Shown here one piece after another: positions 5,824 to 34,158 of a DNA stretch of 64,000 nucleotides. This stretch comes from Clostridiales bacterium. GTDB taxonomy: Bacteria > Bacillota > Clostridia > Lachnospirales > Lachnospiraceae. Position 1 is the first letter of the stretch. Every line of letters begins with the position of its first letter. The stretch lies in contig JAJQIK010000036.1 of NCBI GenBank assembly GCA_021199255.1, positions 1 to 64,000 of the forward strand. The letters run 5' to 3'. A model generated the notes under the pieces. That model searched no databases, had not been told where the DNA came from, and saw nothing but the letters and a program-made list of their open reading frames with translations. Both the position numbers and the translations under genes were made by a program.

Positions 5824-6081
5824 ATGGCAAAATGGGATAAACTATTAGCACGAATATGTTCCTTGTCAAAGGATTTTCGATTTGATGAGTTACGCAAAGT
5901 GCTGGAAAGTTATGGATATGAGATGAAAGCTCCGAAGGGTGGCAGCAGTCACTATACTTTTCGGAAAGAAGGTTGTCAACCGATTACGATACCGAAGCAT
6001 GAACCAATCAAGAAGGTATATGTCGAAATGGTAAAGCAGATTGTAGAGAGTGAGGCGAAGAATGATGAAGACGCTGAATGA
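5824..6081 (+). CDS. hicA: HicA-family mRNA interferase toxin
   Basis: Small RNA-cleaving toxin with a double-stranded-RNA-binding-like fold. Seen: 85 aa; RFDELRKVLESYGYEMKAPK and GGSSHYTFRKEG with the conserved His (H43) of the active site, then the IPKHEPIKKVYV ending typical of HicA. It starts 9 nt after GGAGGG. The toxin gene precedes and overlaps its antitoxin gene by 20 nt, a normal hicAB order. Expression should come from the consensus promoter at 5775-5803. Confidence 0.88.
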   Translation: MAKWDKLLARICSLSKDFRFDELRKVLESYGYEMKAPKGGSSHYTFRKEGCQPITIPKHEPIKKVYVEMVKQIVESEAKNDEDAE

Positions 6082-6430
6082 ATATATGGCGATGTCTTAT
6101 CGCATGGAAATCGTAGAGGATAAGGATGAGGGCGGATATGTGGTTTCTTTTCCTGACCTGCCGGGATGCCTTACTTGTGGCGAGACTGTGGAATCAGCAG
6201 TGGCTAATGCTATGGATGCAAAAAAGGCATGGTTGGAGGCGGCTATTGAAGATGGAATAGAAATTCAGGAACCGGATTCTCTGGAGGATTATTCCGGACA
6301 GTTTAAGCTACGGATTCCGCGCAGCCTGCATAGATCACTGGCAGAGCATTCCAAAAGAGAGGGAATCAGCATGAATCAGTATTGTGTGTATCTGCTCTCG
6401 AAAAACGATGCCGTGTATGTTGGGAAATAA
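6062..6430 (+). CDS. hicB: HicB-family antitoxin
   Basis: Antitoxin that neutralises HicA and probably represses the operon. Seen: an N-terminal degenerate RNase-H-like domain (EDKDEGGYVVSFPDLPGCLT) and a C-terminal ribbon-helix-helix-like segment (LRIPRSLHRSLAEHSKREGI). I choose ATG 6062, preceded by GAGG; a GTG at 6050 in the same frame is possible. The gene overlaps hicA in another frame, so translation is coupled. Confidence 0.88.
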   Translation: MMKTLNEYMAMSYRMEIVEDKDEGGYVVSFPDLPGCLTCGETVESAVANAMDAKKAWLEAAIEDGIEIQEPDSLEDYSGQFKLRIPRSLHRSLAEHSKREGISMNQYCVYLLSKNDAVYVGK

Positions 6431-6459
6431 TGAGTGATCATGCTGTAATATTGGCATTA

Positions 6460-6632
6460 TAGGGATTGCATACCGTACGCTTGATTTGCTTGTAAAGGAA
6501 GCACAGGAACAAGGCATTTCGTATATAAGCTTGGAAGCTACTGATGCAGGACGTCCACTGTATGAAATATATGGATTTGTGAAGATGGAAGATGAAATGG
6601 AACTTAAAATATGTAATAGAAAGCAGGTATAG
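6460..6632 (+). pseudogene. GNAT acetyltransferase C-terminal remnant
   Basis: The frame ending at TAG 6630-6632 reads GIAYRTLDLLVKEAQEQGIS, then LEATDAGRPLYEIYGFVKME. This matches the C-terminal acetyl-CoA-binding part of GNAT enzymes and is clearly homologous to the end of the intact GNAT gene at 10538-11002, which has LEATDMGRPLYKKYGFVQME. The DNA has diverged, so it is a separate old relative, not a recent copy. No N-terminal domain precedes it. Confidence 0.75.
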
Positions 6633-6778
6633 TATGAAAAATCACACTGATGTGCTGATTTTTCATACGGCTATTTGTTTCTGGGCGAAAACAAATGGCT
6701 CTGATGGCAGACGAGGAACCGTCTTCACGGATTTCTCGTCGCCGCTTCGCAACAAGTTGCTCAGAAATGGGGATTAGT
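6633..6778 (+). ncRNA. Structured 5'-UTR element, copy 1 (pseudoknotted, family of three)
   Basis: Hairpin A: TATGAAAAATCA (6633-6644) with TGATTTTTCATA (6656-6667), loop containing CTGATG. Hairpin B: ATTTGTTT (6673-6680) with AAACAAAT (6689-6696). CTGATGGCA at 6701-6709. Hairpin C: 6710-6722 with 6727-6740, CTTC loop and a bulged A at 6731. Hairpin D: GCAAC (6749-6753) with GTTGC (6756-6760). The loop of B (CTGGGC, 6681-6686) can pair with GCTCAG (6759-6764), just before the GGGG ribosome site and the ATG at 6779. The pseudoknot strand shares GC with hairpin D, so the two may exclude each other. Homologous elements lie at 32690 and 61220. It looks like a cis-regulatory RNA; the ligand or partner is unknown. 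Confidence 0.7.
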
Positions 6779-7153
6779 ATGGAAAAAAAGTATCTGATAG
6801 AGGCGTGTGATAAAATTTTTAATTTTTGGAAGTTGGAGGAGTATTTTACACCATTGGATTATCCTGAACTGACATTAAAAATATTTGAGGGGAAACAAGA
6901 AGTTCCGTTTGATGCGTATTACAATAATTATAGTACAAGAGATTTACCATTGAATGCATATTGTAGGCATAATGAATATTTAGTTAAGAATAACAAACCT
7001 GCTGAAAAGTTGTATGATAGAGCAAATGTCTATTGTGGTTGTTACAAAATAAAAACATTTGTGGAAAAAATGGCAGAAAAATGTCGATTGGATATGGATA
7101 AATATGCGGAGATAAATGAACTGTCGGGTAGATTTTATATTTTTTATGTTTAA
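6779..7153 (+). pseudogene. N-terminal part of SF1 helicase gene, ended by in-frame TAA
   Basis: ATG 6779 with a GGGG ribosome site begins MEKKYLIEACDKIFNFWKLE and runs 124 codons to TAA at 7151-7153. The following codons (Ile-Asp-Leu-Asn-Gly-Lys) are in the same frame and continue into the helicase core at 7160-9985 without a frameshift. Reading through gives one protein of about 1068 residues. A single-base change in a sense codon (for example GAA or AAA to TAA) would explain the stop. Alternatives are a sequencing error or true readthrough. It is preceded by structured RNA copy 1. Confidence 0.7.
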
Positions 7154-7159
7154 ATTGAT

Positions 7160-9985
7160 TTGAATGGTAAACTTACGGAGGAAGGCATACAAATAAGTCC
7201 TTTCTTTTATGCAGTTGTTTGTATGATAAAATCATCGGGAATAGCTGTTAACTTTACGCAGAAAGATATTAGAAACTTAAATGAAGATATAAATGAAATA
7301 CTCAAGCAAAATGATGTAGAAATCAAGTCCTTTGAAGATATAAAAGTGGTTAGAGATATTGTATTTGATAAATTAGGAATAAAAACTGAAAGTCAAATGG
7401 GATTGGAAGGTGCGTCAAATAATGTATATGCATGTAAGGGATTAAAGAAAGAAGAGGAAAGTAGCGATTTTTCGAGTTTTTATTTGGAAGATATAGAAAA
7501 AGTACAAAAAAATTATAAAAGCAATGAGCATATTATAAAATACACTACAGCACTGCTACCTAAAACACAGAAAAAGACAATGATAGACAGTGATGTTGAG
7601 GCTATCAAAAAATGGTTAAGTGTAGATAGATTTCCAATGGCGAAATACCCATCAAGATTCTCACCTACATTGATGCAGCAAGTGGCAATTAATATAGCTA
7701 TATCAGAAGAGGATAGGGCTGAGAAAATTTTCTCTGTAAATGGTCCGCCTGGAACCGGGAAAACAACACTTTTGAAAGAAATAATTGCATCAAATGTTGA
7801 ACGATTAGCAGAGACATTGATTAAATATGGAATTGATAGCAGTGCTTTTGTTTCTCATGAAGTGGAATCTGCATCTACTTTAAGCTATAAAGAAAAATAT
7901 TATGAAATACCGGAAGAAATAGCTAAATTTGGAATTTTGGTTGTGTCAAATAATAATGGTGCAGTAGAAAATGTCACATTGGACTTGCCTAAAGCAACGG
8001 ATTTAACAAGCCAAAATACAAGAACCCCATATTTTGATAGAACAGAGAATGAGGAAGTGTATTTTTCTTCAGTAGCAGATAAACTTATCGGAGAAGAGAA
8101 AAGTGCCTGGGGTTTAATATCAGCTCGTATGGGAAGAAAAGCATATGTGTCAGAAGTATTAGGAACATGTATATTTGCAAGAAAAAATGATGCTCCGGAT
8201 AAAATAACATTGGATTTAGCAGGGAAGAATAGTGATTCGTGGGATGAGGCAGTAGAAAAATTTAAGACTGCAAAAAGTATTGTTTTGGCGATAAGAAATG
8301 ATATAAAAAATGACCAAGAAATTCTAGAGAATTTTTATACGAAAGAAGAACAATTGGCTGACAGCAGGTTTGTATTACAGCAACTGCTCACGTCTAAAGA
8401 ACAATTAAATGTAAATTTGAATGAGATAAAAACAGAGCTGGAGAAAAACGAAAAGGAAACAGTTGAAGAAGAAAATGAAATTAACTATATAAAAGAACAT
8501 GCATCTATTTTAAATAAGTTGTTAATTTTTTTAAAAATTGGGAGGTTGGGCGAAATTGTTGCCCCAAAACAGCAGCATATTGAAGAGTTGGTTGTCGAAC
8601 ATGAGGATATTAAAAAAAGATATAATCTGATAGTCGCAAGTATAGAAGATGTATGTAAAAAAATAGATGACCAAAATAGAATAGTTTCCACACTGCAAAA
8701 GGAAGTACATAAATTTGAAGAAAAAGTGTTTGGTGAATTTGGCTCGCTGAAATGTAAGTATAAAAATAATTTGGCAGATAAAGACTTCTATAAAAATATA
8801 AAAGACTCAGAAGATGCGCAAAATGCATGCCCTTGGACATACGCTAAGTATGACGAGGCTAGAGAAAAATTGTTTTATGCTTCGTTGCAGGTTCGCAAAG
8901 CTTTTATTTTGAATTCGCCATATATAAAAAGAAATTTATTTGTATATGAGGCTTATAATAACGGAAGGTATACAAATGCAGAGAAAAAAGAGATGTTTCC
9001 GCATTTGTTCAATGCATTGTCGGTCGTAATACCGGTATTGTCTTCAACGTTTGCGTCGGTTGGAAGATTTTTGAAATATGCAGGGAACAGTAGTTTGGGT
9101 ATGCTTATTATTGATGAGTCGGGACAAGCTGTTCCACAGTCTGCTTTGGGAGCGCTTTATAGGACAAAGCAAGCTGTAGTTGTAGGAGATCCGTTACAGG
9201 TAGAACCTGTTGTAACTATTCCTAAAGTGTTAATTGACATATTAGCTGATAGTGTAGGTGTTTCACACGAATATAAGGTGATTGAAAATTCAGCACAGAC
9301 CTTTGCAGATAGTGTGAATGAATTTAATGGTATGATTGGTGAGCGACAGGTTGGGTGCCCTTTGGTTGTACATAGAAGATGTATAGAGCCTATGTTTTCT
9401 ATTTCAAATATGATTTCATATGATAATAGAATGTTTAATAAAACAAATAAAAAAGAAGAATATTTGAAACCAGAACAGCCATTCTTGATAAAAAAATCAG
9501 GTTGGATACAAGTCGAAGGAGCAGAAAATGGTGGAAGGGACCATTTTGTTAAAAATCAAGCCGAAAAAGTATGTCAATTAATCGAAAATGCAATACATGT
9601 ATACACTGCATTGTTTGAGACTGACGATAAAATATTTATAATTACACCTTTTAGAACTGTTGCAGATTCAATGCGTAATTATATCGTTGATTACTTTTGC
9701 GCAAGAGACTATGATAAGCAGAGATTGAAAAAATGGACGAATAATTGCATCGGTACAGTACATACTTTTCAGGGTAAAGATGCTAATGAAGTTATTTTTG
9801 TATTAGGCTGCTCAGATAGAAGTGTAGGCGCGATGAATTGGGTAGTTAGTAAGGCCAATATACTTAATGTCGCGTGTACAAGAGCAAAGTACAGGATTGC
9901 ATTTGTAGGAAATATAGACAATTGGAAAAATAGAAAGTATTTTAATGAGTTTATTCCGAATTTCATAGATGTATTAGATATTTAA
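7160..9985 (+). CDS. UPF1-like superfamily 1 helicase/ATPase core (downstream of in-frame stop)
   Basis: Predicted SF1B nucleic-acid helicase (AAA_11/AAA_12 type). Seen: Walker A GPPGTGKTT at about residues 195-203 and motif Ia VVSNNNGAVENV. A long charged insertion with coiled-coil character (about 370-540) follows. Then come Walker B LIIDESGQA (about 649-657), GDPLQVEPVV, TVHTFQGKDANEVIF and NVACTRAK. The only start in frame after the TAA is a TTG without a Shine-Dalgarno, so this is more likely the bulk of an interrupted gene than an independent one. Its AT-rich composition matches the CBASS operon, and its place in a defence/mobile island suggests an anti-phage role (inference). No nuclease domain is visible. 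Confidence 0.8.
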   Translation: MNGKLTEEGIQISPFFYAVVCMIKSSGIAVNFTQKDIRNLNEDINEILKQNDVEIKSFEDIKVVRDIVFDKLGIKTESQMGLEGASNNVYACKGLKKEEESSDFSSFYLEDIEKVQKNYKSNEHIIKYTTALLPKTQKKTMIDSDVEAIKKWLSVDRFPMAKYPSRFSPTLMQQVAINIAISEEDRAEKIFSVNGPPGTGKTTLLKEIIASNVERLAETLIKYGIDSSAFVSHEVESASTLSYKEKYYEIPEEIAKFGILVVSNNNGAVENVTLDLPKATDLTSQNTRTPYFDRTENEEVYFSSVADKLIGEEKSAWGLISARMGRKAYVSEVLGTCIFARKNDAPDKITLDLAGKNSDSWDEAVEKFKTAKSIVLAIRNDIKNDQEILENFYTKEEQLADSRFVLQQLLTSKEQLNVNLNEIKTELEKNEKETVEEENEINYIKEHASILNKLLIFLKIGRLGEIVAPKQQHIEELVVEHEDIKKRYNLIVASIEDVCKKIDDQNRIVSTLQKEVHKFEEKVFGEFGSLKCKYKNNLADKDFYKNIKDSEDAQNACPWTYAKYDEAREKLFYASLQVRKAFILNSPYIKRNLFVYEAYNNGRYTNAEKKEMFPHLFNALSVVIPVLSSTFASVGRFLKYAGNSSLGMLIIDESGQAVPQSALGALYRTKQAVVVGDPLQVEPVVTIPKVLIDILADSVGVSHEYKVIENSAQTFADSVNEFNGMIGERQVGCPLVVHRRCIEPMFSISNMISYDNRMFNKTNKKEEYLKPEQPFLIKKSGWIQVEGAENGGRDHFVKNQAEKVCQLIENAIHVYTALFETDDKIFIITPFRTVADSMRNYIVDYFCARDYDKQRLKKWTNNCIGTVHTFQGKDANEVIFVLGCSDRSVGAMNWVVSKANILNVACTRAKYRIAFVGNIDNWKNRKYFNEFIPNFIDVLDI

Positions 9986-32199: not shown

Positions 32200-32649
32200 T
32201 CAGGCGTAATCGGTTCCTTTCCAGGCCATTCGTATGACGTCCATGGTATCGTCAGAGGGATAACGCAGGAGGAAGCGGATTTTTCCATAAGCGATGTATT
32301 CGTGGATACTGCTTAAGGCGCTTTCCAGCTGCGCCATCAAAAGACGGATTTGTTGTTCTGTCTCATAACCGCCCTCATAGCGGTAGATTTCGCCGGATTT
32401 TTCCAGCAGGGACAGCTTGCGTCTGGCGTCAATCATAAAACAGCGGTTTTCCGCTTCGACCAGCATACGCTGGCTTTGCGTCCGCTCAGGGAGCGGAATG
32501 AGCCTGGCGCTGTCGATTTCCTTTTGGAAAGCGTCCAGCAGACTGGTAAAAGCATGGACGTATTGATGGCAGCGGGAAGCGTTGAGGACGATATCCTCCC
32601 GGTATCTGTGATATTTTACTTTGTCGTGAAGCTGTAGTAGTTTATTCAT
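32200..32649 (-). CDS. Hypothetical helical protein
   Basis: 149 aa, mostly predicted helix: MNKLLQLHDKVKYHRYREDI, YVHAFTSLLDAFQKEIDSAR, RMLVEAENRCFMIDARRKLS, QQIRLLMAQLESALSSIHEY. I recognise no family. The ATG at 32649 is the first codon supporting this homogeneous helical protein; a longer minus-strand frame runs into the neighbouring leader and is not supported. It sits between the GH51 gene and structured RNA copy 2, transcribed away from the latter. Confidence 0.6.
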   Translation of the reverse strand: MNKLLQLHDKVKYHRYREDIVLNASRCHQYVHAFTSLLDAFQKEIDSARLIPLPERTQSQRMLVEAENRCFMIDARRKLSLLEKSGEIYRYEGGYETEQQIRLLMAQLESALSSIHEYIAYGKIRFLLRYPSDDTMDVIRMAWKGTDYA

Positions 32650-32689
32650 GGTTTTATTATACACCTTTTGAGAAATAAGGAAAAGAACG

Positions 32690-32793
32690 CAAATTTGTGC
32701 CGGAGCGTCACAAATTTGTCTGATGGCAGAAGAGAAACCGCCTTCGCGGATTTCTCTTCGCCCCGTCGCTAACGTTCCGGAATGGAGATTATT
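32690..32793 (+). ncRNA. Structured 5'-UTR element, copy 2
   Basis: Hairpin B: CAAATTTGTG (32690-32699) with CACAAATTTG (32709-32718). CTGATGGCA at 32720-32728. Hairpin C: 32729-32741 with 32746-32759, CTTC loop and a bulged A. The loop of B, CCGGAGCG (32700-32707), can pair over 8 bp with CGTTCCGG (32773-32780), directly before the AATGGAG ribosome site and ATG 32794. Hairpin A, present in copies 1 and 3, is absent. Same architecture as 6633-6778 and 61220-61367 with changed but still paired bases. Confidence 0.7.
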
Positions 32794-34158
32794 ATGGAAA
32801 AAGATATGACGAAGGGCAGTCCCATGAAGCTGATTCTGGGATTTGCGGTGCCTCTTCTGTGCGGATTGCTTTTTCAGCAGTTTTACAGTATGGTAGACGC
32901 TGTGATTGTGGGGAAATACCTGGGGGTGGAAGCTCTGGCCGCGGTGGGGGCAACCGGTTCCGTGAATTTCCTGATTATTGGCTTCTGCATGGGCGTCTGT
33001 AATGGATTTGCGATCCCGATTGCCCAGGAGTTTGGCGCGGGACATGAAAAGAACTTACATAAATATGTGGCGAACAGCGTGTGGCTGTCCTTGATTTTCG
33101 CCGTTGTGATGACGATTCTGGTAGTTATTTTGTGCCGTCCCATTCTGCAGCTGATGCGGACGCCGGAAAATATCATAGATGGCTCCTATGCGTATATTGT
33201 AATTATTTTTGCGGGGATTCCCGTAGTCTATTTATATAACATGACGGCGGCAGTCATTCGGTCGCTGGGGGACAGCAGGACGCCGGTGTTTTTTCTGGTG
33301 ATGGCGGCTCTTTTGAATATTGTCCTGGATTTACTGTTTATTATTGTGATTCCCATGGGCGTGGCGGGGGCGGCTGTGGCCACGGTTATTTCCCAGGCTG
33401 TGGCGGGACTGTGCTGCCTGATCTATATGCGCCGGAAGTTTTCGATTCTTAAGCTGACCAGAGAGGAATGGCGGTGGGACGGCTTCTGCGCGTCCAAGCT
33501 GTGCGGTATGGGAATCCCCATGGGGCTTCAATATTCCATTACCGCCATTGGCACCGTGATCTTACAGAGCGCGGTCAACAGCATCGGCTCTGACGCGGTG
33601 GCGTCAGTGACGGCAGCCAATAAGCTGGCGATGTTAATTATGTGTCCTTTTGACGCCATGGGTTCCACAATGGCGACCTATGGCGGGCAGAATGTAGGCG
33701 CCGGTCAATTGGAGCGCGTGGATCAGGGGCTAAAATCCTGCAGCCTGCTGGGGCTGCTTTATTCTCTGGTGGCGGTAGGCATTGTCTATGCGGCAGGGAA
33801 CAAAATGCTCCTGTTGTTTCTGGACGCCGGAGAGTCGGCCATCTTGAGTAACGCCACCATGTTTATGCGCACCACCGTGTTGTTTTACTTCCCGCTGGCG
33901 CTGGTTAATATTGTACGTTTCCTGATTCAGGGAATGGGGTATAGTAAGCTGGCGGTTTTTGCCGGCGCTTTTGAGATGCTGGCCAGAGGGCTGGCAGGAT
34001 TTGTGCTGGTGCCCCGCTTCGGCTTTCACGCGGTTTGCTATGCGAATCCGCTGGCCTGGATTTTTGCGGATATTTTCCTGATTCCGGCATTTTTCTATGT
34101 CCGCAGCGTGACGGCGAAAATCTTAAACCGGGAAAAGGGACAGGGGGCTGCTGCATGA
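32794..34158 (+). CDS. MATE-family efflux transporter
   Basis: 454 aa, twelve TM segments. Seen: MKLILGFAVPLLCGLLFQQF, YSMVDAVIVGKYLGVEALAA, NIVLDLLFIIVIPMGVAGAA and TAANKLAMLIMCPFDAMGST, typical MATE blocks. I choose ATG 32794, preceded by ATGGAGATTATT; an in-frame ATG 12 nt earlier lies inside the ribosome site. Its leader carries structured RNA copy 2. It overlaps the next gene by 4 nt (ATGA). Confidence 0.92.
   Translation: MEKDMTKGSPMKLILGFAVPLLCGLLFQQFYSMVDAVIVGKYLGVEALAAVGATGSVNFLIIGFCMGVCNGFAIPIAQEFGAGHEKNLHKYVANSVWLSLIFAVVMTILVVILCRPILQLMRTPENIIDGSYAYIVIIFAGIPVVYLYNMTAAVIRSLGDSRTPVFFLVMAALLNIVLDLLFIIVIPMGVAGAAVATVISQAVAGLCCLIYMRRKFSILKLTREEWRWDGFCASKLCGMGIPMGLQYSITAIGTVILQSAVNSIGSDAVASVTAANKLAMLIMCPFDAMGSTMATYGGQNVGAGQLERVDQGLKSCSLLGLLYSLVAVGIVYAAGNKMLLLFLDAGESAILSNATMFMRTTVLFYFPLALVNIVRFLIQGMGYSKLAVFAGAFEMLARGLAGFVLVPRFGFHAVCYANPLAWIFADIFLIPAFFYVRSVTAKILNREKGQGAAA

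Follow-up and report, generated by a model that had tools for sequence, protein, structure and literature searches.

The element ahead of a helicase-like gene in the 64-kb window (the whole stretch of DNA analysed here, 64,000 nucleotides) is one member of a large family of folded repeats, and is probably a mobile repeat that inserts in the sense orientation between the Shine–Dalgarno (SD) sequence of a gene and its start codon, supplying an SD of its own. According to this reading, a repeat of about 140–185 nt would enter translation-initiation regions in sense orientation, downstream of the gene's SD and typically 2 nt ahead of the start codon. Its 5' end could give a stop codon that closes an upstream gene, and its 3' end would give a new SD at the right spacing, so that the downstream gene would stay translatable. 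As a single strand, the element is predicted to form a hairpin A, a hairpin B, the loop of which pairs with a stretch directly ahead of the new SD in a pseudoknot that encloses a hairpin C, and a weak hairpin D. The downstream gene would be translated from the element's SD, with initiation tuned or insulated by the adjacent pseudoknot. Three unrelated genes in the window share one leader because that leader belongs to an interspersed repeat family.

The three window copies all lie on the forward strand. Copy 1 (6630–6778) runs from TAGTATGAAAAATC to ATGGGGATTA and a 2-nt spacer, and holds hairpin A at 6632–6668 (6632–6644 paired with 6656–6668), hairpin B at 6669–6700, whose loop at 6680–6686 forms the pseudoknot's 5' strand, hairpin C, with one bulged A, at 6706–6743 and the weak hairpin D at 6744–6765, which overlaps the 3' strand of the pseudoknot (6759–6765). 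Its own SD-like GGGGAT (6769–6774) stands 4 nt ahead of the ATG at 6779–6781. Copy 2 (32690–32793) has B at 32690–32718, C at 32725–32762, a pseudoknot between 32700–32708 and 32772–32780, and an SD at 32784–32787 before the ATG of a MATE gene at 32794. For copy 3 (61219–61367) the corresponding positions are 61220–61256 (A), 61257–61286 (B), 61296–61326 (C), 61267–61274 with 61347–61354 (pseudoknot) and 61357–61362 (SD, GGAGGG), with the ATG at 61368. All three fold better than every one of 200 shuffles (z of −6.0, −3.8 and −6.4 for copies 1, 2 and 3).

An earlier note on this DNA had described three related leaders at these places, and both the sequence and a covariance model built from 40 copies confirm that they are true relatives. 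The model finds copy 1, which was in its training set, at 6631–6781 (153.4 bits), and copies 3 and 2, which were not, at 61219–61370 (120.8 bits, E = 1.3e-33) and 32639–32796 (109.5 bits, E = 2.6e-30, where a large local gap replaces hairpin A); no further match appears in the window up to E = 1. The common layout that had been proposed (A, B, CTGAT, C, D, pseudoknot) stands as a shared fold family, but copy 2 lacks hairpin A. The third pair of stem C is C-G, A-T and T-A in copies 1, 2 and 3, and its tips differ, exactly as claimed. The pseudoknot pairs also vary yet remain paired, in helices of 10 pairs in copy 1 (UUCUGGGCGA/UUGCUCAGAA), 9 in copy 2 (CCGGAGCGU/ACGUUCCGG) and 8 in copy 3 (GUCAGAGC/GCUCUGAC), of which 8 are Watson–Crick in each case.

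A family of three, as first described, is far too small a count. In the genome that carries the window (a draft of 3.08 Mb in 93 contigs) the covariance model finds 85 places at E ≤ 0.01, of which 73 are strong (at least 31 bits). A DNA search of the same genome with copy 1 gives 43 matches of 74–100% identity, including copy 1 itself and one 26-base piece; another copy is 95% identical to copy 1. Several draft contigs end within a copy (loci L002, L014, L022 and others); the assembly is probably interrupted by the repeats, and there may be more copies than were counted. In the fetched loci, hairpin A has 253 matches. The core accompanies it in the same direction in 124 of them, another 118 are these places read from the opposite strand, and the remaining 11 are in diverged copies (L051, L060, L064, L281, L285) or lie at a contig end (L062).

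Beyond this genome, the family has a patchy distribution: it was found in 14 of 41 genomes by DNA search and in 25 of 150 Lachnospiraceae genomes by the covariance model, with 20 candidates scored per genome and the window's own genome included in both counts. The named loci among the matches listed come mostly from metagenome-assembled Lachnospiraceae, some labelled Acetatifactor, Eisenbergiella, Roseburia or Lachnospira, together with records under broader labels; one record, Lachnospiraceae bacterium P6B14, is titled like an isolate. Likeness is higher within an assembly than between assemblies: based on 103 copies from 50 assemblies, identity is 0.876 within (92 pairs) and 0.794 between, and none of 500 label shuffles reaches 0.876. 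This pattern fits an interspersed repeat that would have been amplified separately in different lineages. Copy 1 had no match in phage and plasmid collections at E = 1e-5, one core pattern was absent from viral contigs, and no autonomous copy with an internal gene was seen in the fetched loci.

The place of the element relative to genes is mostly exact. Among the matches listed, 79 of 96 model hits end precisely on the start codon of a frame 60 or more codons long, compared with 0.0167 (1.7%) of random same-strand positions, a count to be read in the knowledge that the model's training rows themselves ended in a start codon. Four more hits have a start codon within 11 nt and 13 have none; an opposite-strand start lies at the element's 5' end in 6 of the 96. 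These hits come from 100 of 114 named loci (103 hits, less seven with a short flank). Within the window's own genome, where a locus was fetched for 72 of the 73 strong places and 69 have enough flank, a frame of at least 60 codons begins at the exact codon in 38 of 69; widening the search to −12 to +11 gives 45 of 69, which is weak evidence, as random positions score 0.326. The placement directly ahead of start codons that the earlier note had proposed is thus borne out, and most copies have a fixed sense orientation and spacing to the downstream gene.

On the other side of the element, a second SD-like motif is common. An SD-like tetramer lies within 11 nt to the left in 81 of 101 rows, against 16.0 expected, and in 65 of 84 after excluding rows whose left flank resembles another copy; in the window's own genome the count is 15 of 24, against 4.1 expected. 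Upstream, an open frame of 100 codons or more on the same strand ends between −150 and +45 of the element in 70 of 94 rows, and in 12 of those 70 its stop falls inside the element's first bases, both being counts with no control beside them. All of these counts, and the flank similarity reported below, are subsets with enough flank of 107 rows, which remained from 113 selected for an SD and start-codon ending once six were dropped for a wrong start (L046, L120, L157), a wrong end (L067, L098) or as a window row (one). The window has examples of both features. Directly to the left of copy 3 is a second SD-like GGAGG (61210–61214), which on this reading would be the old ribosome-binding site of the downstream gene, and the frame upstream of copy 1 stops at the element's own TAG (6630–6632). 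Only the C-terminal part of that frame, which we take to be the end of an acetyltransferase, is left (6432–6632), and a HicB-like antitoxin frame lies at 6050–6430.

An old SD on the left and a start codon on the right would make a normal ribosome-binding site once the element was removed, which is what a small intron-like RNA, spliced out to restore the site, would require. We consider such an intron highly improbable: the element's own conserved SD would be useless after splicing, and no Rfam family, intron families included, matches.

Related species mostly lack the element at the same genes. At gatB the element is present at 2 of 30 loci of the genus (the window's own genome and a diverged form in genome G061) and at argF at 1 of 30; each set of 30 was drawn from the genomes in which the gene was matched, 59 for gatB and 72 for argF. 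The junctions were readable by eye with the motif used in 28 of 30 cases for gatB and 12 of 30 for argF, and those that lack the element are mostly a plain SD and start codon. In Eisenbergiella, the junction of trpB and trpA is filled in two species and empty in a third; the third has a copy at another trp junction, which is empty in one of the first two. The trp genes at these junctions are named by our own reading. All of these empty sites are in other species, with flanks about 70–86% identical, rather than in pairs of strains with and without a copy.

Single sites have also been used more than once. Among eight tandem pairs in the window's own genome, the copy adjacent to the start codon scores higher in five, the outer copy in two (pairs C76 and C90), and in the remaining pair (C89), which is cut by a contig end, the scores are equal. 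The five pairs fit a later copy having entered the SD–start gap that an earlier one had created, a pattern seen in five of eight rather than a general rule. Together, the likeness of copies within assemblies, their number, the empty sites and the unrelated genes behind them amount to the behaviour of a mobile interspersed repeat.

The fold is conserved across the family. The 40-row alignment comprises 38 of 56 non-redundant rows and two rows of the window's own genome, with 18 longer or odd variants excluded. Its order is hairpin A, hairpin B, a single-stranded CTGAT, hairpin C with the bulged A, the strand CGCTCCGG (the pairing partner of the B loop), then AATGGRGATTA, followed by two free bases and the start codon. 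With the pseudoknot included, pairing holds in 96.3% of cells, and both sides vary in 23 of the 46 pairs; the covariation score is 0.292, compared with 0.113 for shuffles and at most 0.063 for slid versions. The covariation first seen in three copies therefore holds against both controls in the larger alignment. For the pseudoknot alone, 95.0% of cells are paired and the score is 0.256 against 0.147, with both-side changes in just two of seven pairs, the same number as in shuffles. Of seven members examined singly (the three window copies and four distant ones), six have a pseudoknot helix of 7–8 Watson–Crick pairs and L060 has none, a tally with no null run behind it.

Some copies vary this layout. 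One subfamily (L010, L012–L021, L023, L029 and others of the window's own genome) is about 18 nt longer, with a further small hairpin, AATCCTC...GGATTT, separating A from B, and L027, L032, L033 and L038 have an additional hairpin inside D. The 5' part is missing and most of the 3' end with the SD kept in L022, L025, L028, L030, L031, L036, L037 and L039; L022 is cut by a contig end. Two loci, L024 and L038, are mosaics in which hairpin B and the 3' strand come from different types, so that no more than a weakened pseudoknot is left. Their sequences suggest recombination between copies.

Five of the seven bases in the pseudoknot's 3' strand also belong to hairpin D in the family consensus, and RNAalifold pairs that strand with the segment after C. 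At alignment positions 50/115/136 the triplet is C,C,G or U,U,A in 28 of 40 rows; at 52/117/134 it is G,G,C or U,U,A in 32 of 40. On paper, therefore, two helices compete. The sharing of bases that the earlier note had seen between D and the pseudoknot is therefore real, but a balanced switch is not supported, because D is weak (median −4.1 kcal/mol) relative to the pseudoknot helix (median −17.8 kcal/mol as an isolated duplex, with the loop cost omitted).

The 3' strand whose two partners change together is among the features expected of a cis-regulatory leader (riboswitch, thermometer or protein-binding) of a regulon, in which the pseudoknot and D would be alternative folds. The conserved pseudoknot adjoining the SD, the strongly conserved single-stranded CTGAT and the fixed sense orientation and start-codon spacing also fit such a leader. 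We nevertheless regard it as improbable, as the pseudoknot helix is far more stable than D, the element is absent at most orthologues examined (28 of 30 for gatB, 29 of 30 for argF), copies are more alike within assemblies, and the downstream genes are unrelated. Ten downstream proteins, picked for strand convenience (nine of 45 frames and the helicase piece), fall into nine unrelated groups: galactose-1-phosphate uridylyltransferase, GatB, two glycosyltransferases, a tRNA/rRNA methyltransferase, asparagine synthase, a Cache/HAMP protein, Hsp33, a radical-SAM TRAM protein and the helicase. Copy 2 precedes a MATE transporter and copy 3 a protein with no Pfam match. No regulon is visible among the scanned genes, which have no common function. 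The earlier note was thus right that the neighbours are unrelated, and its reading of the element as a leader or switch is not supported in view of these neighbours, the 73 strong places in one genome, the mostly empty orthologous sites and the lineage-specific likeness of the copies. The helicase-like gene after copy 1 (6779–9985) has an in-frame stop after 124 codons, beyond which the same frame stays open and encodes AAA_11/AAA_12 domains; it is either a broken gene or an assembly error. No useful orthologue turned up when this gene was used as a query.

No Rfam family matches the window or three other loci with copies at the gathering score, in agreement with the note, which did not recognise a known riboswitch class in it. 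At a relaxed E-value, applied to copies 1 and 3 only, the best matches, to microRNA and sRNA models, fall far short of the gathering scores. A leader peptide was also considered, as copy 1 contains a 47-codon frame ending in TAG right before the ATG, and was rejected, since stops or frameshifts break the frame in many of 45 copies printed.

The mobile repeat that we favour may be under selection as RNA, as DNA, or as both. Over 103 model-aligned copies, G-U pairs outnumber A-C mismatches in hairpin B (30:15) and in the pseudoknot (23:12), and are near or below parity in hairpins A (25:21), C (7:14) and D (5:12). Over all helices the ratio is 90 to 74, which is no clear excess, so RNA rather than DNA is not proven as the selected strand, and part of the selection on the fold may, judging from these counts, act at the DNA level. 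The low ratios in A, C and D, the high copy number and the modular variants would all suit a DNA-level repeat of the REP/BIME, BOX or IS200/IS605-derived type, moved in trans as single-stranded DNA, for which the start-codon position would be a target sequence only and the fold would serve a transposase instead of the mRNA. Such a repeat is rather unlikely in our view: in B and the pseudoknot the G-U count is double that of A-C mismatches, the copies mostly run in the same direction as the gene that follows, and the window's own genome has no Y1 match despite a copy 95% identical to copy 1.

The search for a mobiliser covered several classes. The Y1 transposase (Y1_Tnp, PF01797) and the TnpB nuclease domain (PF07282) have no match in the window's own genome; the IS110 transposase (PF02371) is present in 2 of 10 carrier genomes and absent from this one. 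We therefore set aside HUH, TnpB and IS110 movers, each lacking a match in this genome. Reverse transcriptases occur in 7 of 12 carriers, and the 5 of 12 without a match speak against one as the mover; the two in the window's own genome are presumably group II intron proteins. The 5' end AGTGTGAAAAATC and the 3' end GGAATGGAGATTA are not complementary in the alignment inspected by eye, so terminal inverted repeats are not apparent and a classical MITE is not supported. Copies mostly away from start codons with terminal repeats, the pattern that the earlier note had associated with a MITE, were not what we found. Similarity between left and right flanks, a possible sign of target-site duplication, has a z of about 4 over 106 rows but is not significant within genomes (permutation p of 0.14–0.21, 71 rows).

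It is possible, though less likely than not, that the family represents a new kind of mobile element that targets the translation-initiation region, moving by an undescribed, possibly RNA-level route, and that it acts as a portable ribosome-binding cassette. Insertion even in operons with genes such as gatB could then be tolerated because the pseudoknot would tune or insulate translation. A regulatory effect on translation is possible.

Interspersed folded repeats as such are already known, and what is new here is an interspersed repeat with an unusual and exact target. To our knowledge, few interspersed repeats have been described within the bases that set translation, the TAACTGA repeats being one example. 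The bcr1 repeat inserts at a short fixed target. It is described as an interspersed repeat of about 150 nt in the Bacillus cereus group, with one conserved secondary structure and features of a mobile element (PMC2267715). The likeness to our family, also a folded interspersed repeat of about 150 nt, is one of description, and the two differ in bacterial group and in site, which here is the gap between SD and start codon. BOX of Streptococcus pneumoniae is described as modular, high-copy and folded, without a transposase of its own, and as lying in transcribed regions, where it may alter expression (PMC3049150; MITE review PMC10969869). Our family is likewise modular, high-copy, folded and interspersed. 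In contrast, those accounts link BOX to terminal inverted repeats common to an insertion sequence, and no fixed placement between SD and start codon is apparent in them (PMC3049150; PMC10969869), whereas the repeats described here contain a pseudoknot and an SD of their own, and terminal inverted repeats are not visible in them. Palindromic, high-copy and mosaic is how REP/BIME repeats with RAYT transposases are described (PMC2817692). Our family shares these traits; however, REPs are given as 20–40 bp (PMC3733652), and the window's own genome lacks a Y1 transposase match. A parallel in placement is offered by the TAACTGA heptamers of Beggiatoaceae, reported to cluster in forward orientation a few nucleotides before start codons and with stops in all frames (PMC4679880). 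Unlike our folded element of about 150 nt, which supplies an SD, those are short direct repeats with, as described, little SD character. We found no description in the open-access literature of a folded repeat with its own SD between the SD and start codon of a gene. A list of 508 candidate RNAs directly upstream of genes (PMC8040213) could include this family unnamed.

The finding poses the question of what places the element between SD and start codon. Dozens of genes in one genome with the element and its own SD would amount to a natural experiment on swapping a whole 5' leader while the gene is still used, and the family would be an un-catalogued source of expression change in gut Lachnospiraceae.
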